Source: Adineta ricciae (Eukaryota; Rotifera; Eurotatoria; Adinetida; Adinetidae). Taken from it: a DNA stretch of 64,000 bases. Where the stretch lies: assembly GCA_905250025.1 (NCBI GenBank), contig CAJNOJ010000436.1, positions 1 through 64,000 on the forward strand. The letters run 5' to 3'. Shown here piece by piece: positions 10,541 to 61,124 of the stretch. Position numbers and translations under genes: made by a program. Numbering within the stretch: the stretch's first letter is position 1; every line of letters begins with the position of its first letter. A model generated the notes under the pieces. That model was not told the origin of the DNA, searched no databases, and was given only the letters and a program-made list of their open reading frames with translations.

Positions 10541-10837
10541 TCCAAAAATTGATAGGCGAAGCACGATGTTATATATTATACCATAAAGCTTTATTATGAG
10601 GCTATGAGCGAGCTTCGCTCCTGTACGTAGCCGAGAAAAAAAACTGTTCTTATCAAATCGATGTGACAAAAGCGCCATATATAGAATTAGGGCACGGTCT
10701 TTTTATAACATCGAGGAACAACACTTAGAAGAAAGAAGAATGGTTTGTACAGTTAGAGAAAGTAAAGAACAGTGTATATTTGAGAGAGAAGAAAGGTGGG
10801 AACAGAAAAAAAGGAGTCTTGTTCACGTGGTCAATTT

Positions 10838-12546: not shown

Positions 12547-12697
12547 TGCATAAAATGGATGAAAAGTTTAGCGAAATAGTTTCAGCAATATACGTTTTTC
12601 ATCGATTAGATGAACTACATGTTGTGATAGAGTTGGTTTGATGGTTTTCCTTAGTGTAACATTGGTAAAGCGTGCTGCACTGAGAGCTAAAAACCGT

Positions 12698-13640: not shown

Positions 13641-13726
13641 CTGCTGATGGATTTATTTGAGAATGATCTACACATCAACGAACCAGTAGCTTGATTCTTG
13701 TCTGTTGATTTGATCATAGCTTCAAA

Positions 13727-15069: not shown

Positions 15070-15109
15070 GACGCCACTACAACTCATCAATAACGGTAAC
15101 ACTAGTTAA

Positions 15110-15779: not shown

Positions 15780-16056
15780 ATACAAACAAAATCTTGTTCA
15801 TAAAAATTGAACATGATATGCATTTTTTTTGAGTTAATTTACGCAACGCACCTAACCGACTGATGCAACATGTGGGTCTAATCTGCAATGCACGTTTGAT
15901 CAACGAGATTATTGCTTATTAAAAGTTTCTTTAATAAAAATTTTCCCATCTCATGATGCGCTCATGTGAAAAAAATAGCACAAATCTTCATTTTCCCTTT
16001 TACTAAGAGTTCCGTTATCACATTACTCAACATTCTTTACTTAAACATTTGAAATA

Positions 16057-17212: not shown

Positions 17213-17227
17213 TCAGGGGAGTGTGAT

Positions 17228-18987
17228 TATAGAAAAGAAGTGAAAGACGTTGTGCTTTGGAAAGTGTAAGTTTCGAAGCGATAAAGCGCGATGACAGATA
17301 AATACCTAGTATTGTGTTGAGAATGAATGATGGGTGGTAAATTTCTGGTGAAAAGCAGATATCAGAACGAGAACTTTTTGCAAAATTGGTTTCAATTTGA
17401 GATTTCCCATGACCTCATACTTTTTACTGTTTTCATAAAAACGACTTCTTATCAAAAATGCAAAATAGAAGTTTAGATGACTATCCTATTCTATAATATT
17501 CTCTTATTAATGTTATTCTTCATGTATCAAAACAGATTTGAACAATTTCCACTCGTCAAATTCCATAAATCTGAAAGCTATGCAGTCTAATCCAGAAATA
17601 TTTCTATCGTATATCAAGGTAACAGTGTAGATTTTAATACATCATACGTAAAAAATCTTCTAAGATCGATTATCAAAGACAGAATGACGTTAGCAGAATA
17701 TTTTTATGCTCTCATGATTTTATTTTTTTAATTCTGTTTGTGCACTTCGAAAATGTCATGTCAAGCAGTAGAGTTATAAATAAAAAAAAACATTTGCGTT
17801 TTTCAATGTTTCTCTTCATTTTATACAACTCCTTGTGTATCTCAAAAAGTAGCAAATTTGATTATGCCTCTCTACGAAATAACACCATCAAGATTTTTTC
17901 TCTGTCTAGTAAAAGTATTTTTGTTGACATTTATTTCCAACGGAAAATTTTTATCACCAGCATTGCTTTCATCTATTCTACTCGCATTTTCTGTTAATTT
18001 GCTCCTGAGAAATAGACGAAAAAGTGAAAAGATAATTTTACATCAGTTACATAAATTAGTGAACCTACCCATCTACGTCAATGCAGAGAGAAAAAAAGAG
18101 AAGATAATTAAATTAAAAAAATTATCTTTCACTCGTGAATACTTCACTTATATGAAGCATCATTTTAGTTATCATTTCTGATTGAGTTAATCTTTATATA
18201 ACTGCGTCAATTAAGATACAAAAATGGAATTTTATCTTAACCATGAGTTTCATAAGCGAGTTTTTAAAAGTGCATTTATCAGGTCTGAGGAATCAATGAT
18301 ATATGCATTATATAAAGGTTTTGCACAAGCTTTAGTTCTCATTTATGATAATTGAACAGAATGTTTTCGTTTTGTGCTATAGGTTTCCAGTAATTTTTAG
18401 ATTTTTCAGTCGCACGGTTAGTCAAAATATATCGTCATGTTGCTCGTATACGTTTCTCAACAAGGTACGATTTGCTATGGACTCTTTATTTTTATCATCG
18501 GTGTAGTGGGTAATGCAATAAATATTTTTATCTTTGGGAGTGTTCACAAGTATCGTACAACAGTATCCACATTCTATTATCTTATTGGTTCAATTGTAAA
18601 CTTTATTTTAATGTTTACTAATGTAGGTATGCGCATTATATATGATGGATTTGTTTTTGAGCCAGGTAGTAATTCAAATGCCGTGTGTAAAATCAGACGA
18701 TTTTGCAATATTACATTCGGTATGATGTCGCTATGTTTCTCATGTTTGGCAACAATTGATCAATATTTTGCTACATCACCAAATGTTCGTATACGTAATT
18801 GTAGTAATATTAAATGGGCCCATCGTATTACAATTATTGTTATTATCATTTGTTGTTTACATGGTATTCCTTACCTTATCTTTGCTAATCTTTCACCAGT
18901 CACCGGTGTTTGTCGATATATAGATGCTATCTTCGAAGTTTACGTACCACTATTCATTGTGATTGTGCTCGTCATTATAGTTGGCAT
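17228..18987 (+). repeat. Copy B1 of duplicated receptor locus (5' part)
   Basis: This segment matches 27504-29265 base for base apart from scattered substitutions and small indels, including about 1.2 kb of non-coding DNA upstream of the receptor. The match starts at the word 'tatagaaaagaagtgaaag' and stops at the N at 18988. Its natural continuation is found at 46314 (copy B2), with 125 bp (equivalent to 29266-29390) missing between them. Confidence 0.9.
18437..18987 (+). pseudogene. Rhodopsin-like receptor, 5' half (copy B1)
   Basis: Encodes TM1 to TM5 of the receptor whose complete copy is at 28715-29686, starting at the same MLLVYVSQQG and ending in VIIVG within TM5. Protein differences from copy A are very few. 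Downstream of the N at 18988 the frame runs into mariner transposase sequence, so no functional receptor can be made as assembled. The missing C-terminal part probably corresponds to 46314-46609. Confidence 0.85.
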
Positions 18988-18988
18988 N

Positions 18989-19282
18989 TCCTATAGTCCA
19001 GACGTTGCCCCATCTGACTACGGTCTTTTCCGATCAATGCAGCACTTTATGAAAGGTCGCCGATTTGACTCATTCGACGACGTTGAAGAAGCATGTGAAG
19101 ACTTTTTCAATTCAAAGTCGAAGGAGTGGTACTTTGACCAAATCCGAAAGCTTGCAGATCGTTGGCAGAAGGTCGTGGACAATGATGGTCTTTATTTTGA
19201 AGAATAGATGTTGTTTTTAAATGAATTCATGGATAAAAAAATCATTATTTTAACACGGCGCACGAACTTTTTCCTCAACCTA
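18989..19282 (+). mobile_element. mariner transposon right end with transposase C-terminus
   Basis: Directly after the N, the frame encodes SYSPDVAPSDYGLFRSMQHF, the catalytic-domain end of mariner transposases (the third acidic residue follows the APSDY motif), then DQIRKLADRWQKVVDNDG and a stop at 19205-19207. About 50 bp further, 'gcacgaactttttcctcaacctag' is a mariner-type terminal inverted repeat ending next to TA at 19283. The N-terminal two thirds of the transposase are absent. The terminal repeat differs from the one at 46136 and 51638, so two mariner families are present. Confidence 0.85.
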
Positions 19283-19289
19283 GTAACAA

Positions 19290-22200: not shown

Positions 22201-22570
22201 GAAAATATTATGCGTTCACTTATGCATCATAATGATGACTACACGATACCAATATTTTATTTTAGTCACTTTTACTTGTGCACTCATTTCTTTCATAGAT
22301 AGCTTTCTTACTGATTATTCTATTGATCTATCAGCAAAAAAGGTATCGTTGAGTTCATAATGATCGACTAAATGACAATCATGCATAATCATTTTTTATA
22401 CGTTTCTTAGTTCCGATCATGCAATAAAGTGAATCATCTATTCGCATAAGTGTCTCTCAATACATGATTCAAATTTTACGTTGGAAATATAATTACAATC
22501 AAATTAATGGACAGATGCTTATTTAATCAGTTAGCATATGCAATTAAAAAACGTTTTTTGTCCTCATCAT
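19290..22570. other. Long region without recognisable genes
   Basis: Mixed composition with short frames only. Between about 21180 and 21960 variants of 'gaac..tacgaa..ttctac' and 'gatggttttg/gatagttttg' recur at irregular spacing, suggesting a degenerate word-type repeat. The frame at 21784-22011 falls in this repeat and is probably not a gene. No RNA gene was found. Confidence 0.4.
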
Positions 22571-22625
22571 TAGTGTGCCTCTTTTTTGTGAATTTAATCT
22601 CCACATTTCTAAAATATTTTATGAT

Positions 22626-27272: not shown

Positions 27273-28714
27273 CGATAAACAAGAGATTTGTTGGAGTAGA
27301 TTAAAAACGTGATACTTCTATTAGTTGAATCAGAATCTAGTCTTTTTAACTACTTGACTGTTAGCAACGTATACATTCGACATGTTCATTTTTATGCAAA
27401 AAATAAAGACTGTAATTTCTTAAAACGATTTTCTTTGTATGCTTTGGGTTTGCATTAACATTCTACATGTACTGAAACCTACCGTTCGGACTCTGATACT
27501 TCATATAGAAAAGAAGTGAAAGACGTTGTGCTGTGGAAAGTGTAAGTTTCGAAGCGATAAAGCGTGATTACAGATAAATACCTAGTATTGTGTTGAGAAT
27601 AAATGATGGGTGGTAAATTTCTGGTGAAAAGCAGATATTAGAAAGAGAACTTTTTTCAAAATTGGTTTCAATTTGAGATTTCCCATGACCTCATACTTTT
27701 TACTGTTTTCATAAAAACGACTTTTTATCAAAAATGCAAAATAGAAGTTTAGATGACTATCCTATTCTATAAGATTCTCTTATTAATATTATTCTCCATG
27801 TATCAAAACAGATTTGAATAATTTCCACTCGTCAAATGCCATAAATCTGAAAACTATGTAGTCTAATCCAGAAATATCTCTATCGTATATCAAGGTAACA
27901 GTGTAGACTTTAATACATTCATACGTAGAAAATTTTATAAGATCGATTATCAAAGACAGAATGACGTTAGCAGAATATTTTTATGCTCTCATGATTTTAT
28001 TTTTTAATTCTGTTTGTTCACTTCGAAAATGTCATGTCAAGCAGTAGAGTTGTAAATAAATAAAAACATTTGGGTTTTTCAATGTTTCTCTTCATTTTAT
28101 ATAACTCCCCGTGTATCTCAAGAAGTAGCAAATTTGATTATGCCTCTCTACGAAATAACACCATCAACATTTTTTTCTCTGTTTAGTAAAAGTATTTTTG
28201 CTGACATTTATTCCCAACGGAAAGTTTTTACCACCAACACTGCTTTCATCCATTCTCACTCGCGTTTCTGTTAATTTTCCCATGAGAAATAGACGAAAAA
28301 GAGAAAAGATAATTTTACATCAGTTATCATAAATTAGTGAACCTACCCATCTACGTCAAGGTAGAGAGAAAAAAAGAAAAGATAATTAAATAATAAAAAT
28401 TATCCTTCACTCATAAATACTTCACTTATATGAAGCATCATTTTAGTCATCATTTCTGATTGAGTTAATCTTTATATAACTGCGTCATTTGAGATACAAA
28501 AATGGAATTTTATCTTAACGATGAGTTTCATAAGGGAGTTGTTAAAAGTGCATTTATCTGGTCTGAAGAATCAATGATATTTGCATTATATAAATGTTTT
28601 GCATAAGCTTTAGTTCTCATTTATGATAATTGAACAGAATGTTTTCGCTTTGTGCTACATGTTTTCAGTAATTTTTAGATTTTTCAGTGGTACGATTAGT
28701 CAAAATATATCGTC

Positions 28715-29686
28715 ATGTTGCTCGTATACGTTTCTCAACAAGGTACAATTTGCTATGGACTCTTTATTTTTATCATCGGTGTAGTGGGTAATGCAATAAA
28801 TATTTTTATTTTTGGAAGTGTTCACAAGTATCGTACAACAGTATCTACATTCTATTATCTTATTGGTTCAATTGTGAACTTTATTTTAATGTTTACTAAT
28901 GTAGGTATGCGCATTGTATATGATGGATTTGTTTTTGAACCAGGTAGTAATTCAAATGCCGTGTGTAAAATCAGACGATTCTGCAATATTACATTCGGTA
29001 TGATGTCGCTATGTTTCTCATGTTTGGCTACAATCGATCAATATTTTGCTACATCACCAAATGTTCGTGTACGTAATTGTAGTAATATTAAATGGGCCCA
29101 TCGTATTACAGTTATTGTTATTATCATTTGTTGTTTACATGGTATTCCTTACCTTATCTTTGCTAATCTTTCACCAGTCACCGGTGTTTGTCGATATATA
29201 GATGCTATCTTCGAAGTTTACGTACCACTATTCATTGTGATTGTGCTCGTAATTATAGTTGGCATTGTGATGATCAGTTTTGGATGTTTAGCATTTCGAA
29301 ATATTGAACAAACAACTATATTGGCTGATCAAGGAGCTCAAAAACAACTAACAAGAATGATCTGCATGCAAGTGATATTAGTTGTCTTTTGTCTTGCTCC
29401 CTATGGTATTTTCAATATCTATATGTGGTGCACATCTGGAATAAGCGTCACAGCAAATCCTAATTCTATACAAGCTGTTGTCTCACAACTGTCTGGTCTC
29501 TTTATGTGGACTAATTATGCGGTATATGTAATTCATTGTATAGAAATTGTTCATAATCTTTTCTTTTAAATTTAGGGTAGTTTCTATGTTTTTCTCATCG
29601 CTTCTAGTAGTTTTCGTCGAAGAGTAAAATGTCGATTCCTTTGTTGGCGAAATAAAAGTAGAATCAAGCCAACTGATCAAATGTGA
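28715..29686 (+). CDS. Rhodopsin-like seven-transmembrane receptor (two exons, 305 aa, copy A)
   Basis: Exon 1 is 28715-29521; a 54-bp intron (GTATAT...TTTAG, 29522-29575) follows; exon 2 is 29576-29686. The intron is phase 0, and joining the exons restores the end of TM7 (TNYA/GSFYVFLIASSSFRR), the equivalent of the NPxxY segment, plus a basic cytoplasmic tail; unspliced, the frame would stop early. TM1 carries the GN motif (GVVGNAINIF), TM3 ends in ATIDQYFATS in place of DRY, and Cys residues suit the loop disulfide. Such divergent receptors form large families in bdelloids. The ligand cannot be inferred. The start gives a short extracellular N-terminus, normal for this class. Confidence 0.88.
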
Positions 29687-29759
29687 CAATTCTAGACTAA
29701 ATGTTCTCTTACATATATTTGTTGTATCGTATTTCAAATAAAACATCTAATCAGTCACA

Positions 29760-31570
29760 TTCGTGAACGCTTTTCGAGCATTGAGGCAATGAAAGTGAAA
29801 TACAATAATATCTTTTTTTCAAACAGGCCAATGTAACATTCATGATTTCGTCTCATAGACTTGGTCGCGATCAGTCGCACTCGTCCAAGTAAAAAATTAT
29901 ATAGTCTATTTTTCACCTTTTAACTCTTTCTATTCCTAACCAGTTTCATAAGTCCTAGGACCTAAAACTTGGTTTACAACATTTGGGTGTGTGTGTGTGT
30001 GTCTATCTATCTGCCGCAGGTCTTAGGTCAAAGATCAAGTTATATTGATAACAGCAAAACTTTATAAAACATGGTTTTTGAGCGGTGTTGCAGGCGGATG
30101 TTGACAGTAGTGGGCTAAGATAGGGTCGGGTCAAGGATCAAAAAAAGATATTCTTCATAATTGCCCACAACATCGAAAAACATGGATTTCGATGAAAGTT
30201 TAGCAAAAGCGCCATATATTTTCCAGATTACAAACAGAGCTGCGGCATCACGGGATAAGACTGAGAAAGTCCAAAAAGCACAGCAGCTTTGCGCTGAATA
30301 TGCCAAAAACGGTTCGGAAAACCAAGCAACGAGTTCTAAGCCAGACGGGCTGCCACACCCAAGGAAACACCGATGGACCTAAAGAATGCTCCGAATTTCA
30401 CAGACACCCAGCGTATTAAGGCACTGACACCAAAATATCCCGCATCTCAGAAAAGACGGCAGAGCTGAGACCAACTACATACCTCATAAAACATTCATAG
30501 TCCGCGACACAGAAGAAAACTATGAGTGACGATCTTCAAGACCGCAGCTCATAGATTTCACCAAACAAAACCCCCGATTAACTACCTCCGAGCGCGACAT
30601 TATTGTACCTAGCCATAAGACCCCACATACCCTCAACACACCGAGTCGAAAACCATTCCACTACACCAAACACAAAATACCAACACAATTCCCGAGCATT
30701 ACTGAATCAGGATTCAAAATACGGATCCGGTTCAGTGGAGAGTAGCCGAAGTCCGGCGTCTCAAACCTTGCACGTATTACAAATGTGATATTTGGATTAT
30801 CCATCAAAGCATATTAGTCGATCTGTATTTTTCTAAATATATTTAAACTAGAATAAGATGATTTCTTCATGTTTGAGGAATTTTCGATGCTTTTTAAGAA
30901 GTTCACTGATTTCAGCATAGGTCCACAGGAAATTCAAGTTATCCTGGTGTACATTTTCACACTTTATTCACTTCTTCAGCTCCGTCAACTTCCTTTACTC
31001 CTTTAACTCCTTTTATTCTCTTAAGTAGCTGCGATTTCTTTAGGTTTGATGAGTTGCTTACGTTTACTGACTATTTTCACTAAACATGCTGTGTCATTTG
31101 TCCTGGCTTTTTTGATACTACAAGAGAAATCGTAAAAAAGCATCGAGCTAAAAAAGGACAAAGAAAAATATATCAACATATATTACATGTAGAGGATATA
31201 TCTTATATTTCTACACCTTGTCCATGTTTTGGGGTTCGATTGGGTGGGTGGACGATATAATATTAATCACCAAAGTATTCGAGATAAGTATTAGGATAGG
31301 AACAGGAGTTGGATGTTATTTTGTGTACAAGCATTTTATGACTGTAGGTGAATAGGTGAGAAAGATCAGCTATGATCTTGATAGTGAACTCAAATCACTC
31401 TCTATGTTGCATCTTTTCTTTTTCTGCTAGTCATGAATTTTTATTTAGTCATCATTCTGCATTATTCCCTCCGCTGAAAGGAGGATGTACACAGAATTTG
31501 AACTAAAATTCGTTCGTCTATTCATGCACTCTACATTGACGAAATAACAGCCTATACTACTGACTAAGAA
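29760..31570. repeat. Non-coding block shared by copies A and B2, related to 62070-63120
   Basis: Contains a TG microsatellite at 29990 and a stretch (about 30040-30560) present in B2 (46960-47500). Parts also resemble 62150-62260 ('ggtcaaagatcaa...ttatat', 'gtgttgcaggcggatgttgacagtag') and 63058-63105 ('gatgagtgacgatc...ctcat'). It looks like an old interspersed repeat. The frame at 30161-30382 (DFDESLAKAPYIFQITNR) is open in both copies but carries no recognised domain and I do not call it a gene. Confidence 0.5.
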
Positions 31571-31578
31571 AGCTTAAC

Positions 31579-32116
31579 TAACGAGAGAACCGCCCAAGGT
31601 GATTAATGGTTTCTTTTTTGAGTCAATGCTTTATTTGTAATTAAACAAGCAGTTTACAGGAAAGGGAGAGAGAAGAAAACATACAACGGATAGACTGGTT
31701 ATAAAGCTAGCAGAAAAGAGAAGAGACGCATGATTTATGTCTTATGTCTCTTAACGGGTTTAGATCTCATCTATTGGTGGTAGATAGTCGTCGATGAGGT
31801 ATGAAATGCCTCAAGAGGATTCGTGCCCATGAGACTTTTATCTAGAGTTACTATATATGTTTTACTGAAATTTTCAGAGCATTGTTCCTATCTCGAGGCC
31901 TATCTGTACCCAAAGATTCAGTTCTAAATGCTCGTATTTGATTTGTTGGTAGATACCTAGCTATATGCAAAGATTTCAGTAAAACATATATAGTAACTCT
32001 AGATAAAAGTCTCATGGGCACGAATCCTCTTGAGGTTTTTCATACCTCATCAAGGACTATCTACCACCAATAGATGAAACCTAAACCCGTTAATCACCTC
32101 GGGCGGTTCTCTCGTA
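31579..32116. repeat. Foldback element, copy A
   Basis: The terminal 'acgagagaaccgccc' at about 31580 is the reverse complement of 'gggcggttctctcgt' at 32101-32115. Inside, about 31755-31884 pairs with about 31970-32090. The left arm is interrupted between the terminal and the internal pairing segments by about 140 bp. It has no coding content, so it is a non-autonomous hairpin element. The same family occurs at 1-425 and 48591-49148. Confidence 0.75.
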
Positions 32117-32342
32117 AGTGTAAAACGAACGTGTCAGATGCACATATTTTGTTGTGCGAAAAGCATATCTTGTTGATATATGTTAGTGTTAAAACGGATG
32201 AACAGCTACGTTTATACACATATTACAATTGTAGGCAAGATCGACATAGACGCCAAAAACAAACTTTCTATTTTAATTTATCAACTAGCCTGTTTTCAAA
32301 ATCGATCGACAGAAAGGTTTCAAGAAAGAAAATGATTGTCAT

Positions 32343-33429
32343 TCAGTTGAAGTTGAAATAACGATGTTGAAGGTGGTGAAACATTGCAAAGCAGAGCGTA
32401 CCGGTCAATGTGTAGATATAGAAAGACGTTGAATGAGTAAGATGTACCAAGAGAACAATCAGGGAATATCTCAAGTTTTCGACAGTCACACGATATTGAC
32501 TTTTCGATACATTAACCGTTACACTAGCGTGTGAACGGTAGAGTCCAAATGGCAAATCCAATACCAAAACGCACGATACCTAAAACAATCAATCCATATT
32601 ATTTTTATTTTCAGCTCTGTGAAATGTCTTGAATAATCTGAATAAATAACATTCGCGTGAGATTACGACCGTTTTTCCGTGCTAAAACTAATTGCTGTGT
32701 TGTTCGAACAGCGTGTTGAAACGAATTTATTGTTGGATGAATGATTTTAGAGCGCGTATTGCGAATAGTTAGTGTTTCAAAGATGGTGACAACGATACTT
32801 GGGAAAACGATATCTACGCCCAAGTATACCCAATCATTAATAATTCAACAGGAAAAATCTCGGCCATAGCAAGAAACAGGGACATTGGGAATTTTTGCTT
32901 CCACACAATGGAATACCCCCAGAAAAGGCAAATGTAAAGAAAATGAAAATACTCATGACAACGCATTTTGCTGGTCGATGTGTACTCAGCTGACGATAAG
33001 CAACTGATTGATGACTACACAAAAATCGATCAATATTTGCTGCAACAAGAATCCAAATAGCTGATGACCAACTAATGTTCAGTAAATACAAATGCGTTTT
33101 GCAAAGAGGCTGATTTTCATTGGGCCAATTGATGTTGTAACTACAATTCGGGTCTACCATCATACTGACATTCTCCAATTGGTTTTCTTTTAAACTTACC
33201 CTCGAAGGACTTGCGTTAATAATCCTGACAAGGTAAATACGGTAGCTGATAGTGAAGACCAACAGAGGTAGATTGTACATAGAATCTTTTTGAGAGGACG
33301 CTCTCTTAGAATACAAATGTTCAATACATTACTGACTGTGCCAAAAAGAATTAAAATTGTAGGTCCATGTCGATTGATTTGCATTGTGATGTAGTTTATG
33401 GATGACACCAGATCACTACTATTTGACAT
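32343..33429 (-). pseudogene. Rhodopsin-like receptor pseudogene (copy A)
   Basis: Blocks in order on the minus strand: 33429-33200 (TM1-TM2: ILILFGTVSNVLNICILRER, SATVFTLSGLLTQVLRG); after a GTAAGT donor at about 33202, a block with CSYNINWPNENQPLCKTHLY and ILVAANIDRFLCSHQSV (TM3 with a DRF variant of DRY); 32857-32639 (INDWVYLGVDIVFPSIVVTI, TM5); 32579-32343 (LPFGLYRSHASVTV and SFYIYTLTGTLC, TM6-TM7). Lesions: a frame change near 32870, an in-frame TGA just before INDW, and a lost donor in the last intron (CAG followed by ATTATT at 32637, where copy B has GTTAGT). The receptor class is clear; this copy should not make a full protein. Confidence 0.75.
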
Positions 33430-33439
33430 TATTCTGCTT

Positions 33440-34340
33440 TTGCTTCGAGTAACTTACAAGCGATAAAATACGATTCGACCTGGAAATGTGTCTCCTCTTT
33501 TACCTTTCGACTGTTCATAAAGTACTTTTATCATCGAATGTGTCCGCGAAGGAAAATATAAGGAAAGCTGCAGATGTCACAGTATGATAGGATTAAAAAA
33601 TTGATGAGAACGAACACATGGATCATTAGAAGAAAAGAAGTATCGCATGCCGAAAGAAAAAACTTATCTTAGTGATGATGTAACGAATTTTTTACTGGCG
33701 TGAGTTGTTAAGATTTTGCAGAATGATGACATGATATGATAGATACGAACGTCGGATATCCTTCGAATAGATCACTAGACGCCTGCTGTGTATTAGGAAA
33801 AATGAGGACGACAGTTGTATTATTTTCAGATTACGCGACGCAAATCAAATTATAAATATAGAGAGTTCGATTTCGCATAGGTACTGCTACATGTGTTTAT
33901 CCAAGCGACACTCATGCCAAACTTGCCTGGTTGAAACTGAATGACTTGACATTAATTTATGAGAAAGGTCATGTCATTGAAAAAAATGACTTCGAATCGC
34001 CAGGGCTACTTCACACTATTATTGTTTGTTTTCATGAATTTCATTACAATAACAAATTAAGTAGTGTACTTGGCCAGAGACGGACAAACCGCATATTTAC
34101 TAAATTCCGGACTGTAAACAATAGATATTTGAGCAATTTAATTTTTGAAAGCTAGTCGCATTTCCCAATTTCCCTTGGTCGTTTAACTTATCATAAATCG
34201 ATTCTCTATTAATCAGTAATTTTAATTCGAAAAACAGCGACATGGATATTCATATACATTGCATAATGCATGGAATTTGCGTAGAAGTGTGAGCTGCTTT
34301 TTTATTTTCTGATTAGTTTGGTTAAAGTTTTCACAATATT
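33440..34340. other. Intergenic between receptor pseudogene and carboxylesterase
   Basis: Shared with copy B2 (50470-51376). The frame at 33931-34155 is open in both copies, but copy differences are not concentrated at third codon positions by eye and no domain is recognisable, so it is not called. The region lies downstream of the esterase and upstream of the receptor pseudogene, whose promoter it may have held. Confidence 0.4.
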
Positions 34341-34342
34341 CA

Positions 34343-36086
34343 CTATGAAAATCTCATGAAAACAAATAATGATAAAATATATAATACCAAAGATGTTTTT
34401 ATATGATTCGACTGATTTCCAAATAATTCATGGACACCTTCCCGTTCAATTTGGTCAAATATGTCACAGTTTCCAGCCCACAAAACTGACGCGAATTCTT
34501 GGAAAGGTGTTATATAAAAATATTTCGGTGCTGAAAAATCATAAACTGACCATGATGATAACGGTTTTCCATCTTTTGCTATACTAACCCAATGCTGAAT
34601 GATCTGATTCGAAAATATCCGTGATTGATTATCCCAAGTGCAATTGAGAGAATTCGATGATTCGTAACTACTTATCGTTCCAAAAACGAACGGAATTTCA
34701 GACGTATGAGTACAAATACCCGCGCCTTGTTCAAGTGAAGATTGAGGACAAATTCCTGGATTGCAATTCAAATGATACCAGAATACATTTGGCTTTTTAT
34801 TCGATTTCAAATATGAATTTCGATAGATTCGACGTACGTTACAATCAAACATTTTATCTGTTACAATTGAATTGAATAAATCACAACAACGATTAGTTGA
34901 GTTTTGATTTGATGAGCATTTATTAACTCGATACGAATTGGTAACAACTGGTACCCATTTTTGACCCATCGATGAAACTAATAATGTATTTAACTCAGTT
35001 GAATTCATTTGAGGAAATACAAAACAAAATGCATTTTCATCATTATTATTTCCGAAAATTAAACTTAAATTTTCATTATAATTTCCATTTTCAATTGCTA
35101 AAGGTGGATAAAATGGAAAAAAGTAATCATCAATCACCGGTTTTGTTTGACGATGACCATATGCACTATCCAAATCTTCGAACGAAACTTTGCGTAAACA
35201 ATCAAGTTTCATTTGACTATCATTATTCGAACAATTAACATTTTGAACAATTTCATTTGATAAATTGAGGGCATTACTCATATTTGTATAATATAAATAA
35301 TTACCTGAACCACCTGACTGAGAAATCACATGTTGATACAGATTTGATGATCCTTTCACAGCGCCAAGATCAACAACTGCATTCGCACCTGAACTTTCTC
35401 CGAATAGAAGTACATTATCTTTATCGCCTCCAAAGTCACGAATATTCACTTTAATCCAACGTAGAGCGGATAAAATATCTTGAAGAAAATAATTTCCAGA
35501 AGTTGGCCATTCAGTTCGATTTTCTTCATTTAATTCTTTTAAATACAAATCACCCAACACACCTAATCGATAGTTAATTGTTACAACGACTATTGACTGC
35601 CGAGGCGAATTCGCGATGATATTCGTTCCATTGTACAATAATGGAATACTTTGGGAAGAACAACCAGACCGTAAACCACCTCCGTGTACCCAGACAAGAA
35701 CTGGCAATAGAGATTGACGAGATACGGATAAAGGTGTAAAAATATTTAAATAAAGACATTGCTCATCTTGTGTAGGAATATAAACATTACTGAGTCTTTG
35801 CAAACAACATGGACCGAATGATGTGGCGTCAAATGAACCATTTGGATACATGTCCAAGGAAAGATCAATTGGTGGTTGCCATCGATTAGTTTTGGCATAT
35901 TGAATTCTATTGGAACAAGAAAAATATTTAGAAATTGAAAAATTCGATGTGTTCGAACCCGAGATATTCCATTGAATATGTTGTTTTTCGACCATTGATT
36001 ATTCCTTTTCGAGTTTCAAGAGCAACACTTATTGTATTTAATATCAATATGATTATGATTGAAAAGTAAAGCGTAGAACGCTCCAT
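34343..36086 (-). CDS. Type-B carboxylesterase / cholinesterase-like enzyme (two exons, 563 aa)
   Basis: Exon 1 is 36086-35959, a 52-bp intron (GTTCGA...AATAG) follows, and exon 2 is 35906-34343. Splicing joins EYLG/IQYAKTNRWQPP, the GIPYAxPPxGxxRF segment of the family, so the spliced start is preferred over starts inside the intron. A signal peptide (LYFSIIIILILNTISVA) opens the protein. The nucleophile Ser is in LLFGESSGANAV; the acidic residue fits FGNNNDENAF; the His fits CTHTSEIPFVFG. EQCLYLNIFTP is the second family signature, and FGPCCLQ the first disulfide. The C-terminus is hydrophobic (SLVLYILSLFVFMRF), suggesting a GPI anchor as in acetylcholinesterases. It should hydrolyse carboxylic esters at the cell surface; the natural substrate is unknown. 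Confidence 0.9.
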
Positions 36087-38642: not shown

Positions 38643-39970
38643 TTAGCACTGTGCACTAACGCCGACACTGCTTGCACCGGAGTTAGCGGTAACTATATCG
38701 GGTCTATTGTCATCGTTCACATCGACGACTACCAATGAGAATGGAGCACTGCCAGTTACATAAGTAGTTCGACAACAAAAGGTCCCAGTGCCTGTGCTAA
38801 GCAGAACACTCGCAGTGTTTGTATCCACGTTAGCGGTAACTATATCGGGTTTGTTGTCATTATTTACATCGATGACTGCTACTGAGTATGGACTACTGCC
38901 AGTTGCATACGTAGTTTGAGCAGAAAAGGTCCCGTTGCCGGTATTGAGAAGAACACTGACATTGCTTGCACCATAGTTAGCGGTAACAATATCGGGCTTG
39001 CTGTCATTGTTCACGTCGACGACTGCTACTGACACTGGACCATTGCCAGTTGCATACGTAGTTTGAGCAGAAAAGGCCCCGTTGCCGATATTGAGAAGAA
39101 CACTGACATTGCTTGCACCATAGTTAGCGGTAACAATATCGGGCTTGCTGTCATTGTTCACATCGACGACTACCACTGAGTTCACTTGAGTGCCAGTTGC
39201 ATAAGTAGCTTGAGCAGAAAAGGCCCCATTACCTGTATTCAGAAGAACACTGGCAGTACCTGCAGCATAGTTAGCAGTAACAATATCGGGTTTGCTGTCA
39301 TTATTCACATCGACGACTGATACTGACACTGGACCATTCCCAGTTGCATACGTAATTTGAGCAGAAAAGGTCCCATTACCTTTATTCAGAAGAACACTGA
39401 CAGTACTTGTAATGTAGTTAGCCGTAACTATATCGGGTTTGTTGTCATTATTTACATCGGCGACTGCCACCGAGCGTGGACTACTGTCAGTGGCATAAGT
39501 AGTTTGAGTAGAAAAGGTTCCAGTGCCTGTATTAAGAAGAACACTGACAGTGTTTGCACCGGAATTAGCGGTAACTATATCGGGTTTATTGTCACTATTC
39601 ACATCGACGACTGCTACTGAATATGGACTACTGCCAGTTGCATACGTAGCTTGAGCAGAAAACGTCCCGTTGCCGATATTGAGAAGAACACTAACAGTAC
39701 TTGCACCGGAATTGGCGGTAACTATATCGGGTTTATTGTCACCATTCACATCGATGACTGCCACCGAGTATGGACTACTGTCAGTTGCATAAGTAGTTTG
39801 AGCAGAAAACGTCCCATTACCTGTATTCAGAAGAACACTGACAGTACTTGCACCGGTGTTAGCGGTAACTATGTCGGGTTTATTGTCATTGTTTACATCG
39901 ATGACTGCCACTGAGTACGGTTGAGTGCCGGTTGCATAAGCAATTGCGGTGATGAACTTGTTGTTAGACC
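38643..39970 (-). CDS. FG-GAP/VCBS tandem repeat protein (5' exon not found)
   Basis: Nine repeats of 49 residues (147 bp) with the core SVAVxDVNNDNKPDIVTAN followed by SVLLNTGNGTFSAQ. The D-x-N-x-D-x-K-x-D cluster is the calcium-binding loop of FG-GAP/VCBS blades; seven or more blades build a beta-propeller as in integrin alpha heads. The exon begins at 39970, after a convincing acceptor (TTCTTTCACTTATAG at about 39985-39971), so the ATG at 40025 is probably intronic and the signal peptide is on an upstream exon; a GTAAGT donor at about 41058 is one candidate. The frame ends in GVSAQC at 38643. A secreted or surface role is inferred. Repeats are nearly identical in DNA, indicating recent tandem expansion or conversion. 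Confidence 0.85.
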
Positions 39971-40029
39971 CTATAAGTGAAAGAACGTTTTTATTAGTTA
40001 AAAATATGTAGAAATGAGCGTGCATCAGA

Positions 40030-43000
40030 GTTGTCTTTTGCAGTTGTGAGTGTTTTATAGTTTTCCTCGTCTCATCGTTTGAGAAAGTTCGTGTACAGTG
40101 AATTATAGAACTAAATGATCGTATAACGTACCAACAAAGTTACGTTTTCGAGCTCTCAGTCTGTTGTAGATTGATGCATCATTAGTTGAAATAAGAAGCA
40201 GTCTCAAAAGTCCGCTTTGTTTCATCTATAACGAATAGCCACTTCTGGCATTCATAACCGTTTGTATGAGTTGCAACTCTAGTCTAAAAAATTTTCTCGC
40301 GGACGCTTAGTTTGAAGAAACTCTATAGTCCTTTTCACACATACACAGCTCCAGTTACAGTGTGAGATTAGTTGTAGACGGCGAACTTGGCTTAAATGGT
40401 AGAGTCGTTAAGTCGTGTGCGCAAGCGAATGGAATTAGAAATGGCTCTCAGATGTACGACTGAAACTGAGAAAATGTATCCTTTTCCTTTGCTTCTTTAA
40501 GCTAGTTTGTCACTAAAGTTATGGGAACGCTAGTATTTTTGTGTTGGGAAATACCAGCACACCGTTGTGAAAAATGTTTTAGCTTGGCTTTGGCTGTAGG
40601 ATTGATAGTTTTCGTGTAAAAACAAGTAACATGTGATAATTGCTTTGGTAATGTTATTTCTATGCCACTGTTTCAGAGTCGTGTTAGTTGTTGAATTAAT
40701 AATGATTCTAATTACACTTTCATATTAATGCTCGAAGTACAAGAGAGATTCTAAAAACTGTCGCCGTAGCCTGTTGACAACTTCGTCATGAATTATGAAG
40801 ATTTTCTGAATCTCTTGTAAATAGCCGCCTATGAATGTGAACACACTTTTTTGTCTATCTTGTGCAGCAAAATAAATCGATAAAACTTCTTAATTGGCTT
40901 TGAAAAGTTACTGTTTGATTAGATTGATATTTAGAACGAATCGAGTGATGTTTTTTCGAATAGGTATTTACCCGTTATTTTGGAGTACTAAGCAACAAGT
41001 CAGAGCGAAACAGTGCTAGCTCTATCCAGCTTAGTTTAGGTTAACTATACATTACTTACCTGATGTGATGACGATAGAACAGCGAATATTAGAAAGCCAT
41101 AGTGGAGTAGAGAAAAAGAAATCTATCCATAACCTTGTTCTGCAACTACTATTAGTTAACTCCACAATCTGCTTATTGGTGAGTTATGAACGTCATGACA
41201 AACTAATCTTCTGCTTCCTAATAAAATCTCATCTACAGATTATGCGCATCTTGCTCATTTCCATTATGATTTTCATGCACTTCGTTCATCTACAATCGAT
41301 ATACAATACTCATAGGGTTCATTTGAGAAAGCGGAACATTTTCACAGATACTTAACGATGGAATCATCCGAAATGAGTGGCAACATATTAGACTTTGACC
41401 CTATTACATTAAATAAGTCTTAGCTGAGTATAAAAAATTGAAAAAATATATATGTTCATGGTTTTCCCTATAAATTTATGTACGCCTCACTGAAGTTTCA
41501 GTTTACAATATTCAACATGTCCAAACATTAAATGATTGTACGACAAGAACAAGATTTATTATCAGATACTTCGCTTTGGTAAAAATTTCCATATTTCATG
41601 AAACACAAAATAGACCCATGCTTAGTTTAAAAGTCTGAGATCTGTGATTTTGCAGACATTCGAATTATCATTAGAAATATAGAGACATATCTGAAAAAGA
41701 CAATAATGCTCTGACTTTCTATACTATCTGATATTACTTCAATTGATATCGAAATAATAGAAGCTGGGTACGATCTGATATTTTATGTTATGTAACCGTT
41801 ATGCTAACATCTATTTATTCGAGTATTTTATCAATAAGTTTGGAGCGAAATTAGACAAATACCTTCAACTATTACGATTAGAAAGCAATGAGGAATATAC
41901 ATAGAATGACGTACTGTATATTTTTCTAAATGTTATTTACTATTTCTTCAATAATTGTTTCCAATATTAAAAACAAATTTCGTGTCATATGAACTGTCAA
42001 CAGAAAAATTACTTCTGATCTTATCTACGGTATCTATGACTTCTGAAGAACTGATAACATATATGTAAGTTTTCCAAGCTTTTATCTGTTTTATATAGGC
42101 GATTTAAATATATATATATATGACCATTGAGACTTCATTGCAAATACTTCACAGAATAGATTGGTTTTGAAAGGGAACAAATGGCATCTTCAATAGACCA
42201 TGTAGATGAGTCCACAATATTCGATCGTTACCATTCGATGTATGTATGTAAACAAGGTGACTCGTTCAGGATTTTTTTCTCATATCACGTAACTTAGGTG
42301 AAAATTCATGCAAAAATAATACACATTATATGCTGTTTACATAGAAATATTTGACGCAAACATTATGAACACCGCAGTTTACTTATACTATTGTAAAATG
42401 TCACTCGCGAGATTTGACTTGTCTATAGTTTTTCGACAATCGTTCTTACGGCGTAGAAAAAGAAAAGCTAGTGATTACCATCAGTTAGGCTATCTTCGAT
42501 ACGCCTTTCAAAGATTATCGAATGCCGTCAAAATATCCACGATTTTCTCATTTTTGCGATACATTTGAATTACTCCACTGACAACGCGCAACTTTATTCC
42601 TAGCACTAATGCTACTTAAGATTGTATTTGAAATGGACTTAGAGGGAGATTTTTAACTCGAGTTGTTCATTTCTGATATGCAAGACAGAATATTGTTGCC
42701 GTGACAGATGCAAAACTTTCAAGTACATATCTTTCTACATTTCATACCGTTTCTTAACCCGAGGACATTGTGTGAACCGTTATTAAACGAAGCAATAAAA
42801 TATTACACACGAAAGCCGCTATTTTCTACGATAAACATAGTCTAATTGATTGTACAATGAGGAAACAATTATAGACGTAATAACAAAATGCTTTGGCTCC
42901 AGAGATATTTGATCATCGCTGTCAAGGATATTTTGAATTTTTCTCTGAATAACAGGTATAAGATATACTGAAATATTATCGGAGTGAACCTTTTGTTATT

Positions 43001-44849: not shown

Positions 44850-46130
44850 AATAAAATGAATACCATCTGCTACTAGTAGCTGCTTTTTATTCTGTTTTTT
44901 TTCTCTCTCTTCCGTAATAAAAATCTACTGTTTCTCTGCACCAATAGTTTTAAAAAAGTCATGCCTTGGTCTAATATTCAAAATTACCATATGAAAAATT
45001 CATGATGAGAACGATGTGCGAATTTCTTTCAATCATTTTGAATAAGTCATGCGCTCAAAAACCACTGTTGCTTCATAGTAGCTGCACAGTTAGTGGGCGA
45101 AACTGCACATCCATTTTCTTTCTGTTCAACGTAGGAGAAAAAAAAGGAATGAGTCAACATAAAGGAGAATGTGTTATTATAATGAATATTTATCTAACGT
45201 AAGACATTTTTGCAACAGATTCGACTCTTCCAGGATTTATTTGTTATGATATGCAATCTAAATCTGTTTTCATGCGTTTCAAGTCAGAATTCGACGAGTT
45301 CTATCGATTCCAAACAAAAATATTCATAGATCCACGAAAAAATGTTTTTATCATTGTGTATCTTTATGCTACTAGGCTATTAATATTAAAAAAGATGTAA
45401 TATACAATGATAAATACCAGATAACACATAAATAGAGTAATACTGAATTAATCAGCATAACGGCATCCATTATTACACAAAAAGCACGCATGGTGTTATT
45501 CAATTAAAATTCCAACTAACTTTTTTAAAATGCTTGTAATTGTTCCTTATGACGACTATGTTTTCTATTGTTGATTTTTCCGAAAGTTTGACGTACATTT
45601 CCAAATTAAATTATGACACAACACAAAAGGAGTTGTTTTTCCGAATATAAAAAATCAACAGTACTAATATTATTACTTTAATAGTCTGTCCTTAACTAAT
45701 TCTGATCACAGCCATTATATGATTAAAAGTAGTGCGTTATTCCCAAGTGCATTATATATTGTCTACCACACCATACACCACATAAAAATCTTTTTGGACA
45801 GTCCTGATCTGTGCTCGTCTCTGGTTTCATAGTATTATATTGAACTATATAATTTCCTTTAAAAATTATATTGAATGTCAGTATTTTATTATTTTTATGT
45901 CGAGATATTGGCAATATTTAACGGTCCATCACAATAGCTGACTTTTTGTTTTCATTGTCTAAAGTTATGTTTTATTCATAGCAAATATTTTTCATAAAAA
46001 AAGTGTTCAATAAGGAAAGTGATCTACTGCGTGATAATATAGTTCTATCAGGTTTTTTTTATTAGTTTATGAGCAACATACATAAAAAATTTTCAGCGCA
46101 ATCCCTAACGGGATAAAATTGTAAAACACT
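44850..46130. other. Intergenic upstream of the PAN-like gene
   Basis: AT-rich. The minus-strand frame at 45914-45723 ends with CPKRFLCGVWCGRQYIMHLG, which has some Cys/Trp character, but no start, signal peptide or family can be supported. Nothing else is recognised. Confidence 0.35.
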
Positions 46131-46313
46131 ATTTACTTAGGGCAATCCAAAAGTAGTGAGGGAGGTATGTTATTTTCTTAGGCAGAGACGTAAAGAAATT
46201 TCTTTTTTTACCAAAAGATAGAGCGTGTTTCACTCTATTTTTCTATGCTATTTGATCATTATTAAACTGTTATCATAATAGTAAAATTTCCATAAAATCT
46301 GTTTTTGTCACAN

Positions 46314-46609
46314 GTCTTGCTCCCTATGGTATTTTCAATATCTATATGTGGTGCACATCTGGAATAAGCGTCACAGCAAATCCTAATTCTATACAAGCTG
46401 TTGTCTCACAACTGTCTGGTCTCTTTATGTGGACCAATTATGCGGTATATGTAATTTCTTGTATAGAAATTGTTCATAGTCTTTGCTTTTAAATTTAGGG
46501 TAGTTTCTATGTTTTTCTCATCGCTTCTAGTCGTTTTCGTCGAAGAGTAAAATGTCGGTTCCTTTGTTGGCGAAATAAAAGTAGAATCAAGCCAACTGAT
46601 CAAATGTAA
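46314..46609 (+). pseudogene. Rhodopsin-like receptor, 3' part (copy B2)
   Basis: Begins directly after the N at 46313 in TM6 (LAPYGIFNIYMWCTSG) and matches 29391-29686. The 54-bp intron is present at 46445-46498 with intact GTATAT and TTTAG sites, and exon 2 ends with ATG TAA at 46604-46609, the same length as in copy A. It is the missing C-terminal part of the B1 receptor at 18437-18987, lacking 125 bp between them. Confidence 0.85.
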
Positions 46610-48590
46610 CAATTCTAGACTAAATATTCTCTTACATATATTTGTTGTATCGTATTTCAAATAAAACATCTGATCAGTCATATTCGTGAACGTTTTTCAA
46701 GCATTGAGGCAATGAAAGTGAAACACAATAATTTCTTTTTTTCAAACAGGCCAATGTAACATTCATGATTTCGTCTCATAGACTTGGTCGCAATCAGTCG
46801 CACTCGTCCAAGTAAAAACTTATATAGTCCATTTTTCACCTTTTAACTCTTTCTATCTCTATCCAGTTTCATAAGTCCTAGGACCTAAAACTTGGTTTAC
46901 AACATTTGGGTGTGTGTATGTGTATCTGCCGCAGGCCCTAGGTCAAAGGTTAAGTTATATTGATAACAGCAAAACTTCATAAAACATGGTTTTCGAGGGG
47001 TGTTGCAGGCGGATGTTGACAATAGAGGGGTAGGATAAGGGTCGGGTCAAGGATCAAAGATCAAAAAAAGATATTCTTCATAATTGCCCAAAACATCGAA
47101 AGACATGGATTTCGATGAAAGTTTAGCAAAAACGCCGTATATTTTCCAGATAGCAAACAGAGCTGGGGCATCACGGAGTAAGACTGAGAAAGTCCAGAAA
47201 GCACAGCAGCTTTGCGCTGAATATGCCAAAAACGGTTCGGAAAACCAAGCAACGAGTTGTAAGCCGGACAGACTGCCACACTCAAGGAAACACCGATGGA
47301 CCTAAAGAATGCTCCGAATTTCACAGACACCCAGCGTATCAAGGCACTGACACCAAAATAACCCGCATCTCAGAAAAGACGGCAGAGCTGAGACTAAGTA
47401 CATACCTCATAAAATATTCACAGTCCACGACACAGAAGAAAGCGATGAGTGACGATCTTCAAGACCGCAGCTCATCGATTCCACCAAATAAAATCCCCGA
47501 TTAACTACCTCCAAGCGCGACATTATCGTACCTAGCCATAAGACCCCAAAATACCCTCAACACTCCGAGTCGAAAACCATTCCGCTACACCAAACACAAT
47601 ATACCAACACAATTCCCGAGCATTACTGAATCAGGATTCAAAACACGGATCCGGTTGCAGTATCCCGATAGCGTTTCCGTATTTTATTTACGAGCTTCCA
47701 GATACGGCTCATATCCAATGTTTTCCGGTCCAGTGGAGAGTAGCCGAAGTCCGGCGTCTCAAACCTTGCACGTATTACAAATGTGATATTTGGATTATCT
47801 ATCAAAGCATATTAGTCGATCTGTATTTTTCTAAATATATTTAAACTAGAATAAGATGATTTCTTCATGTTTGAGGAATTTTCGGTACTTTTTAAGAAGT
47901 TCACTGATTTCAGCATAGGTCCACAGGAAATTCAAGTTATCCTGGTGTACATTTTCACACTTTATTCACTTCTTCAGCTCGATCAACTTCCTTTATTCCA
48001 TTAACTCCTATTATTCTCTTAAGTAGCTGTGATTTCTTTAGGTTTGATGAGTTGCTTACGTTTACTGGCTATTTTCGCTAATCATGCTGTGTCATTTGTC
48101 CTGGCTTTTTTGCTACTACAAGAGAAATCGTAAAAAATCATCGAGCTAAGAAAGGACAAAGAAGAACAAAGAAAAATATATCAACATATAGTACATGTAG
48201 AGGATATATCTTATATTTCTACACCTTGTCCGTGTTTTGGGGTTCGATTGGTGTATGGACGATATAGTATTAATCACCAAAGTATTCGAAATAAGTATTA
48301 GGATAGGAGCAGGAGTTGGATATTATTTTGTATACGAGCATTTTATGACTGTAGGTGAATAGGTGAGAAGTATCAACTATGATCTTCATAGCGAACACAA
48401 ATTACTCTCTATGTTGCATCTTTTTTTATTCTTGCTAGTCATGAATTTTTATTTAGTCATCATTCTGCATTATTCCCTCCGCTGAAAGGAGAATGTACAC
48501 AGAATTTGAGCTAAAATTCGTTCGTCTATTCATGCACTCTACATTGACGAAATAACAACCTATACTACTGACTAAGAAAGCTTAACTAAC

Positions 48591-49148
48591 GAGAGAACCG
48601 CCCCGCAAGGTGATTAATGTTTTTTTTTGGAGTTAATGCTTTATTTGTAATTAAACAACCAGTTTACAGGAAAGGAATAAAGAAAAAAAACACAGAACGA
48701 AAGGAGAGAGAAGAAAACATACAACGGATTTTTGACTGGTTATAAAGCTGGCAGAAAAAAGAAGAGACGCATGATTTATGTTTTATGTCTCTTAACGGAT
48801 TTAGATCTCATCTTTTGGTGGTAGATAGTCCTCGATGAGGTATGAAAAACTTCAAGAGGATTCGTGCCCATGAGACTTTTATCTAGAGTTATACATTTTT
48901 TACTGAAATTTTCAGAGCATTGTTCTTATGTCTAGACCTATCTGTACCCAAAGATTCAGTTCTAAATACTGGTATTTGATCTGTTGGTAGATGCCTAGCT
49001 ATATGCAAAAATTTCAGTAAAACATCTATAACTCTAGATGGAAGGCCCATGAGCACGAATCCTCTTGAGGCTTTTCATACCTCATCGAGGACTATCTACC
49101 ACCAATAGATGGAACCTAAACCCGTTAGTCATCTCGGGCGGTTCTCTT
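48591..49148. repeat. Foldback element, copy B2
   Basis: Orthologous to the element at 31579-32116 and at the same place relative to the flanking genes, so insertion predates the A/B split. The terminal 'acgagagaaccgcc' pairs with 'ggcggttctcttgt'. It has extra A-rich sequence (about 48680-48710) within the left-arm interruption. Confidence 0.75.
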
Positions 49149-49377
49149 GTAAGTGTAAAACGAACGTGTCAGATGCAGATGTTTTGTTGTGCGAAAAGCA
49201 TGTCTTGTTGATATATGTTAGTGTTAAAAGGGATGAACAGCTACGTTTATACACATATTACAATTGTAGGCAAGATCGACATAGACGTCAAAAACAAACT
49301 TTCTATTTTAATTTATCAACTAGCCCGTTTTCAAAATCGATCAACAGAAAGGTTTCAAGAAAGAAAATGATTGTCAT

Positions 49378-50463
49378 TCAGTTGAAGTTGAAACAACGAT
49401 GTTGAAGGCGGTGAAACATTGCACAGCAGAGCGTACCGGTCAATGTGTAGATATAGGAAGACGTTGAATGAGTAAAATGTACCAAGAGAACAATCAGGGA
49501 ATATATCAAATTTTCGATAGTCACACGATATTGACTTTTCGATACATTAACCGTTACACTAACGTATGAACGGTAGAGTCCAAATGGCAAATCCAATACC
49601 AAAACGCACGATACTTAAAACAATCAATCCATATTATTTTTATTTCCAGTTCTGTGAAATGTCTTCACTAACCTGAATAAATAACATTCGCGTGAGATTA
49701 CGACCGTTTTTCCGTGCTAAAACTAATTGTTGTGTTGTTCGAACAGCGTGTTGAAACGAATTTATTGTTGAATGAATGATTCTAGAGCGTGTATTGCGAA
49801 TAATTAGTATTTCAAAGATGGTGACAACGATACTTGGGAAAACGATATCTACGCCCAAGTATACCCAATCATTAATAATTCAACAGGAAAAATCTGGGCC
49901 ATAGCAAGAAACAGGGACATTGGGAATTTTTGCTTCCACACAATGGAATACCCCAGTGAAGGCAAATGTAAAGAAAATGAAAATACTCAGGACAACGCAT
50001 TTTGCTAGTCGATGTGTACTCAGCTGACGATAAGCAACTGATTGATGACTACACAAAAATCGATCAATATTTGCTGCAACAAGAATCCAAATAGCTGATG
50101 ACCAACTAGTGTTCAGTAAATACCAACGCGTTTTGCAAAGAGGCTAATTTTCATTGGGCCAATTGATGTGGTAACTACAATTTAGGTCTATCATCATACT
50201 GACATTCTCCAATTGGTTTTCTTTTATACTTGCCCTTGAAGGACTTGTGTTAATAATCCTAACCAGATAAATACGGTAGCTGATAGTGCAGACCAACAAA
50301 GGTAGATTGTACATGGACTCTTTTTGAGAGGACAATCTCTTAAAATACAAATGTTCAATACATTACTGACTGTGCCAAAAAGAATTAAAACGGTAGGTCC
50401 ATTTCGATTGATTTGCACTGTGATGTAGTTTATGGATGACACCAGATCACTACTATTTGACAT
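49378..50463 (-). pseudogene. Rhodopsin-like receptor pseudogene (copy B2)
   Basis: Same blocks and same internal lesions as 32343-33429 (frame change and TGA before the IINDWVY segment). The last intron here has an intact donor (CAG/GTTAGT at 49672) but its acceptor has changed from TTTTAG to TTTTAA (49615), so the lesion differs from copy A. TM1 reads NGPTVLILFGTVSNVLNICI. Confidence 0.75.
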
Positions 50464-51376
50464 TTTTCTGCTTTTGCTTCGAGTAACTTACAAGCAATAA
50501 AATACGATTCGACCTGGAAATGTGTCTCCTCTTTTGCCTTTCGACCGTTCATAAAGTACTTTTATCATTGAGTGTGTCCGCGAAGGAAAATATAAGGAAA
50601 GCTGCAGACGTCACAGTATGATAGGATTAAAAAATTGATGAGAACGAACACATGGATCATTAGAAGAAAAGAAGTATCGCATGCCGAAAGAAAAAACTTA
50701 TCTTAGTGATGATGTAACGAATTTTTCCCTGACGTGAGTTGTTAAAATTTTGCAGAACGATGACATAATATGGTAGATACGAACGTCGGACATCATTCGA
50801 ATAGATCAATAGACGCCTGCTGTGTATTAGGAAAAATGAGGACGACAGTTGTATTATTTTCAGATTATGCGACGCAAATCATGTTATAAATATAGAGAGT
50901 TCGATTTCGCATAGGTACTGCTACATGTGTTTATCCAAGCGGCACTCATGCCAAAATTGCCTGGTTGAAACTGAATGACTTGACATTAGTTTATGAGAAA
51001 GGTCATGTCATTGAAAAAAGTGTCTTAGAATCGCCTGAGCTACTTCACACTATTATTGTTTGTTTTCATGAATTTCATTACAGTAACAAATTAAGTAGTA
51101 TACTTGGTCAGAGACGGACAAACGGCATATTTACTAAATTTCGGACTGTGAACAATAGATATTTGAGCAATTTAATTTTTGAAAGCTAGTCTCATTTCCC
51201 AATTTCCCTTGGTCGTTCAACTTATCATAAATCAATTCTCTTTTAATCAGGAATTTTTAATTCGAAAAACAGCGGCATGGATATTCATATACATTGCATA
51301 ATGCATGGAATTTGCGTAGAAGTGTGGGCTGCTTTCTCATTTTCTGATTAGTTTGGTTAAAGTTTTCAAATATTCA

Positions 51377-51540
51377 CTATGAAAATCTCATGAAAACAAA
51401 TAATGATAAAATATATAATACCAAAGATGTTTTTATATGATTCGACTGATTTCCAAATAATTCATGGACACCTTCCCGTTCAATTTGGTCAAATATTTCA
51501 CAGTTTCCAGCCCACAAAACTGGCGCGAATTCTTGGAAAG
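51377..51540 (-). pseudogene. Carboxylesterase, C-terminal fragment (copy B2)
   Basis: Equivalent to 34343-34506, encoding the last 54 codons including the hydrophobic tail. The frame is cut at the N at 51541, beyond which mariner-type terminal repeat begins. The catalytic part is not in this window. Confidence 0.85.
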
Positions 51541-51802
51541 NTGAAACACGCTCTATCTTTTGGTAAAAAAAGAAATTTCTTTACGTCTCTGCCTAAGAAA
51601 ATAACATACCTCCCTCACTACTTTTGGATTGCCCTAAGTAACTAGCGACTTTGCTCTTGTAAAATATTTCCGAGAAAGCAGAAATCAATTCGACGAAATG
51701 TAGTTATACAAATCATTTATACAAACCAAGTAGAGAACCGTTGTAAAAATGGTATTCTTAAAGGATGCTAAAGTATGATTGAAACGAGATCAGTTAGGTT
51801 AT

Positions 51803-60788: not shown

Positions 60789-61124
60789 GGCATCGGTGTG
60801 AAGCTAGCGCCATTTGGCTATCACCACGAAACTAAGAATATTGCGAAAATGAAATTCCGTCCGTAAAAACTAGTCTATTCGATTCAGAATTTAGTTTTGT
60901 ATTGAACGGTGCCGCTTTTATTCATGGACAAACGAATGGAAATATGTACTTATTGAACAAAAACTAAAAATCGAGGGAAGCTCCGCCTCAACCGTTTGTG
61001 CGTGAATAAAAGTGGTACCGTTCGATGTAGGATTCAATTCTGAATCGAATGGACTATTTTTGATGGACGGGAATTCATTTTCACAAAATTCTTAGTTTCG
61101 TGGTGTCACCTTCACACTGATGCC
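60789..61124. repeat. Foldback element (about 336 bp)
   Basis: The left arm (60789-about 60935) and right arm (about 60985-61124) are inverted copies at roughly 80% or better, from the outer 'ggcatcggtgtgaag' through 'ccacgaaactaagaat' and 'ccattcgattcagaatt' to 'cgaacggtaccacttttattca'. The spacer is about 50 bp and carries a small 'gaggc..gctccgcctca' hairpin. No clear target duplication is visible. It lies about 270 bp upstream of the ATRAID gene. Confidence 0.75.

Follow-up and report, generated by a model that had tools for sequence, protein, structure and literature searches.

Gene pieces captured by DNA transposons, those of the mariner type included, are already known. In rice, Pack-Mariner elements are reported to have captured pieces of genes (PMC8903248), and transduplication has brought gene fragments into Turmoil-1 of C. 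elegans (PMC2572040). False heterotype (haplotype) duplications, as characterized in the cited part of PMC9516828, comprise two copies on one scaffold with gaps between them, an allele-like divergence and genes cut at the edges. In bdelloid assemblies, homologous blocks are found linked on one scaffold, and many collinearity breaks span scaffold gaps, some of which possibly represent scaffolding errors, according to the passages cited from PMC5916493. The locus described here was compared with both situations. It lies in a stretch of 64,000 nucleotides of the bdelloid rotifer Adineta ricciae (contig CAJNOJ010000436.1, positions 1 to 64,000; hereafter the window; GC content 34.6%, near the 35.6% stated for this species in PMC5916493), in which mariner-type inverted ends bordered by TA enclose a multi-gene segment of 5.2 kb, designated B2. 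Both the ends and the insertion are genuine and of an ordinary kind. Judged from the sequence, the multi-gene segment between the ends is very probably an assembly artefact, and it is, if anything, a shade more probable still that the join between the element and B2 is artificial.

The locus resembles the Tc1/mariner elements and their short non-autonomous derivatives in its inverted ends, in the TA on either side and in having a relative, on contig C655, with a match to Mos1 (E 1.6e-05). Labels of this kind, such as C375 and C285, denote contigs of the same genome, the window contig being C436. Unlike mariner, the copy on C375 is a long-armed foldback without a mariner transposase and is interrupted by a hAT element. 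Gene pieces flanked by transposon ends are shared with Pack-Mariner and Turmoil-1, but, in contrast to those elements as presented in the cited passages, both end-to-gene junctions of the window are Ns and neither is sequenced. Since gene-piece capture by DNA transposons is established, even a real capture would add a member or variant to a known category and not create a new one. With false haplotype duplications the locus shares the two copies on one scaffold, the intervening gaps, the allele-like divergence and the genes cut at the edges. It differs from the cases in the cited part of PMC9516828 in that the stray copy occupies a gap within a transposon and thereby mimics gene capture. Homologous stretches share one scaffold here too, as do the linked blocks of bdelloids in the passages cited from PMC5916493.

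The inverted arms at 46136-46232 and 51542-51638 pair over 97 bp with 100% identity, which far exceeds chance. An ungapped extension over both TAs and a few flank bases yields 104 bp at 99% (46129-46232 and 51542-51645). The initial annotation had described mirrored 97-bp ends with a TA outside each of them and a single N inside, at 46313 and 51541, and all of these features are present. The perfect pairing thus stands, although 97 bp is not the full length of the end: the right arm is cut by the N at this depth, whereas the left arm runs on for 177 bases that match C375 and C285 at 100% throughout, and the arms of C375 are longer. The features of the locus are as follows.

46134..46135, no strand: left target-site TA, common to 25 of 25 ends inspected elsewhere
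46136..46312, plus strand: foldback element, left arm, 177 bases to the N, 100% identical to C375 and C285
46313..46313, no strand: left assembly join, a single N read in the sequence
46314..51540, plus strand: copy B2, very probably a misplaced contig, about 95% identical to 29391-34509
51541..51541, no strand: right assembly join, a single N read in the sequence
51542..51638, minus strand: foldback element, right arm, 97 bases to the N, inverted match to the left arm
51639..51640, no strand: right target-site TA, read in the sequence

The two ends fit one insertion at one TA. When the window flanks were joined and used as a query, element-free paralogous sites were identified that span the joint, the best being on C693 (228 of 255 columns), followed by C442 (131 of 167 columns) and one of two places on C580 (129 of 167 columns). 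As these sites join both flanks, positions 46135 and 51641 were adjacent before the insertion. The alignments show AA in place of TA at the insertion point of the paralogous sites, which are therefore diverged relatives of the target and not its allele.

A search of the genome (130.5 Mb in 1,033 contigs) with the outermost 100 bases of the left end yielded 49 candidates, 40 of which were scored as matches, and 12 of these 40 show 98-100% identity over at least 97 bases. Twenty loci were fetched and the ends were inspected in 19 of them, with L027, a 37-bp partial match, left out. All 25 inspected ends are bordered by TA, as are both sides of the window element, in keeping with the target duplication typical of Tc1/mariner elements. 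The inverted repeats expected of this superfamily are likewise found in the window pair and in other two-armed copies. Five copies are two-armed and free of Ns, namely those on C375 (5910 bp), C585 (912 bp), C413 (1416 bp), C655 (1659 bp) and C26 (729 bp), and long imperfect inverted arms of the foldback kind were found in C375 and C585. The arms of C375 pair at 98% over 123 bp and then at 87% over a further 206 columns. This copy is a foldback with an outer body of 914 bp, into which a hAT element is nested at 124-5111 with an 8-bp target duplication. The hAT element (L009, C375:214-6127) measures about 5 kb, has 22-bp ends with one mismatch and the target duplication TATTTGAT, and encodes a BED zinc finger and the hAT dimerisation domain. 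The diverged cousin on C655 (1.66 kb) contains antisense transposase fragments in several frames. Two of them were compared with the PDB set, where one matched the Mos1 transposase at E 1.6e-05 and the other had no match; four fragments compared with Pfam gave sub-threshold hits only, including HTH_48 of Mos1 and DDE_3. The coding region of C655 has more relatives in the genome, the longest matches being 66-84% identical. In C585, C26 and C413 the longest open stretch was equalled by 55, 53 and 62 of 200 shuffles, respectively. No host gene was seen in the five gap-free two-armed relatives, the open reading frames of C585, C26 and C413 having been considered without a family search.

The window ends are therefore most likely those of a family of mariner type, the near-identical members of which are foldbacks of about 0.9 kb. 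Such a foldback would be mobilised by the transposase of a relative. The initial annotation had expected a normal-sized element with a transposase-type interior of 1-2 kb and had proposed to learn the true interior from other copies of the 97-bp end. The gap-free copy on C375 provided that interior, a foldback of about 0.9 kb plus the nested hAT; the normal size is thus retained, but transposase fragments occur only in the diverged copy on C655. Among the titles listed in the literature on bdelloid mariner or foldback elements (15 of 229 and 8 of 26), none names the element. Another two-armed copy, on C89 (4693 bp; L012, C89:171926-176618), contains one N at L012:2088 and is a foldback with a nested frame of 558 residues that carries a DDE_Tnp_1_7 domain, which we take to be that of piggyBac. 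The frame sits between 19-bp perfect inverted ends starting with TTAA (3011-5338), and piggyBac elements follow a TTAA rule. About 1.5 kb to the left of this nested element, including the N, is unexplained.

The assembly is regularly interrupted at near-identical copies of the element. Among the 12 near-identical ends, two belong to the gap-free copy on C375 and ten are interrupted, seven by a single N (after 97, 116, 149, 177, 201, 204 and 307 bases) and three by a contig end (after 116, 189 and 447 bases), whereas 26 other fetched loci, some of them overlapping, contain 4 Ns in 88,157 bases. The interior was recovered whole once (C375) and in part once (C188, where 328 bases up to the end of the contig match at 94%) despite ten near-identical ends outside C375, and it therefore looks collapsed in the assembly. 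A single N can be what a scaffolder writes for a zero or negative gap. The literature consulted on SSPACE and on negative gaps contained no statement on single-N joins.

The enclosed segment is itself one of two copies. The primary copy, in which the cargo is contiguous with its neighbours, lies 17 kb from B2 on the same scaffold and in the same orientation. The features of the two copies and of the region around a third assembly join are as follows.

29391..34509, plus strand: B1, primary copy of the cargo, joined to its neighbours without a break, found by sequence match to B2
27504..29265, plus strand: A1, primary copy of the neighbouring piece, found by sequence match to A2
17228..18987, plus strand: A2, second copy of the neighbouring piece, ending at the N at 18988, 95.1% identical over 1764 columns
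18988..18988, no strand: third assembly join in the window, a single N read in the sequence
18989..19283, plus strand: 3' part of another mariner directly after the N, with a Mos1-like C-terminus (18989-19204 against Mos1, E 1.4e-17; no Pfam match), right end set by eye

B2 and B1 are 95.1% identical over 5,098 aligned columns. Their homology begins one base after the left N and ends one base before the right N, and B2 does not differ from B1 in the 121 bases that follow the left N. A2 aligns with A1 with the same identity of 95.1%, and its last 116 bases are 99% identical to the primary copy. Together, A2 and B2 are collinear with 27504-34509, and only 125 bases are absent between them; no copy bridging these 125 bases was found. 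Outside indels the divergence is about 5% and fairly even along the copies, which is close to the heterozygosity of 5.5% given for Adineta ricciae in the cited part of PMC7953838. In the receptor part, A2 and A1 differ at 13 of 549 bases, with a synonymous divergence (dS) of 0.085 and a non-synonymous divergence (dN) of 0.007. The contiguous primary copy contains an open frame of 289 residues for a rhodopsin-type receptor, a further frame of 162 residues that resembles a receptor but does not reach the Pfam cut-off, and the end of a carboxylesterase. The second copy has its receptor gene split at Ns into two parts 27 kb apart. Gaps between the copies on the one scaffold, as in false haplotype duplications, are present at 46313, 51541 and 18988. 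An open frame at 18422-19207 runs across the N at 18988 and joins the first part of the receptor to 72 residues that match the C-terminus of the Mos1 transposase (E 1.4e-17). Like the placement of B2, this fusion frame is probably a false chimera.

These observations suggest the following course of events. A TA-targeting, mariner-type foldback of about 0.9 kb that encodes no transposase of its own would have inserted at one TA, between the present positions 46135 and 51641. As the interior is a near-identical repeat, the assembly would have broken within both arms, at 46313 and 51541, and the 5.2-kb contig 46314-51540 would then have been put into the gap by single-N joins. This contig is likely to be the allele of B1, derived from the second haplotype of 29391-34509, in preference to a true nearby duplicate, and its left neighbour 17228-18987 would have been placed at another N. 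Most simply, one second-haplotype copy would have been broken where the haplotypes are nearly identical and its pieces dropped into gaps.

The other explanations differ in which parts of this course they dispute. A genuine capture, in which a mariner-type foldback carries the neighbouring 5.2-kb gene segment between intact ends and moved with it as a unit, would fit the perfect arms, the TA on both sides and the single original target, and it has precedents in Pack-Mariner of rice (PMC8903248) and Turmoil-1 of C. elegans (PMC2572040), as far as the cited passages describe them. The initial annotation had raised this host-gene capture, but both junctions are Ns, so that no host gene is contiguous with either end, and the cargo is exactly one contig from N to N. 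Moreover, the arms are cut off at different depths (177 and 97 bases) within a repeat, the interior of which can be read in C375, and a search with the end regions of B2 (46314-47800 and 50100-51540) detected B1 as the sole other copy above 90% identity over more than 1 kb. Among the listed matches to the element end, C436 has two, both at B2 and none at B1, and the five gap-free two-armed relatives hold no host gene where one was looked for, C375 containing a nested hAT and C655 transposase fragments. We regard genuine capture as very improbable. The same holds for its variant in which the join is correct, the Ns are merely hairpin-induced gaps and a host segment of several genes and 5.2 kb resides in an animal foldback. 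To our knowledge, such a cargo would be unusually large for an animal mariner-type element. Two separate insertions to either side of a genuine segment, with a gap replacing one end of each insertion, would accord with the frequency of single-armed copies beside Ns in this assembly; this is the least probable explanation of all, since the flanks at 46135 and 51641 are adjacent at the element-free sites on C693, C442 and C580, as fits one insertion at one TA. The scaffolding artefact, which the initial annotation had rated as at least as likely as capture, was borne out more strongly than stated: the cargo extends from N to N, and the eight remaining near-identical ends, those neither in the window nor in C375, are all broken as well.

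If B2 was misplaced, it could still be a true non-allelic local duplicate of B1 whose contig was put into the wrong gap. The position of B1, 17 kb away on the same scaffold and in the same orientation, is compatible with such a duplicate. The even divergence of about 5% and the dS and dN values are instead those of alleles in a heterozygous genome, and A2 and B2 end beside nearly identical stretches (99% over 116 bases and 121 identical bases), as would occur in a graph that collapses alleles. Several results nevertheless weigh against the allelic origin. The left edge of A2 at 17228 carries no N and may be a real junction or an unmarked misjoin, and the sequence to the left of A2 (1-17227) showed no match to that to the left of A1 (20001-27503), which leaves this edge unexplained. 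To the right of B1, a search for the continuation of the allele detected nothing above 84% identity except the end of B2 itself. In view of the edge at 17228 and of the continuation, the local duplicate is retained as an unlikely but tangible alternative. By eye, the region to the left of 17228 appears retrotransposon-like, with frames at 11235-14982 on the minus strand.

A parallel to the preferred explanation, the placement of a second-haplotype contig in a gap of the element, was observed on C285 (L016), where 204 bases of the same element end lead up to a single N (position 1150). Beyond this N the left flank of the element is repeated with 95.2% identity over 949 columns, ending at the target TA, and the match still stops at the TA when the query is extended through the arm. 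Apparently, an element-free allele has here been joined beside the element-bearing allele. The outer flanks of five other N-bounded near-identical copies were compared with the sequence beyond the N, using 801-952 bases for the four besides C285. Here the results speak against a general pattern: only C285 shows the flank repeat, C509 and C753 show none, and C111 and C254 have only short flank matches (70 bp at 81% and 32 bp at 91%, respectively). The sequence beyond the N of C254 is a dispersed repeat with its best other copy on C93 (95%); the beyond-N sequences of C254 and C753 have many partial copies elsewhere and decide nothing. C285 is thus one clear parallel and does not establish a rule. 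A further reservation concerns the foldback itself, because the outer right part of C375 contains an open stretch of 93 residues that only 6 of 200 shuffles reach, so that the foldback may not be wholly non-coding.

Elsewhere in the window, a frame of 498 residues at 38643-40139 consists of tandem repeats whose units are about 80-84% alike in DNA and presumably of the VCBS/FG-GAP type. Other inverted-repeat (foldback) stretches are located at 1-224 and 60822-61105. The receptor proteins have a look suggestive of a bdelloid rotifer. An array of a bdelloid telomere unit gave 12 forward and 26 reverse matches, and a control, made of that repeat in a different phase, gave 14 and 30, so that the counts do not discriminate.

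The artefact would arise by breaks inside both arms of an element, after which the gap is filled by a different contig, probably one that represents the second haplotype of sequence nearby. Unless reads confirm them, the gene fragments of B2 and the receptor/mariner frame at 18422-19207 should not enter any count of genes, pseudogenes or duplications. A recently spread foldback in a heterozygous genome can fake a convincing case of gene capture.

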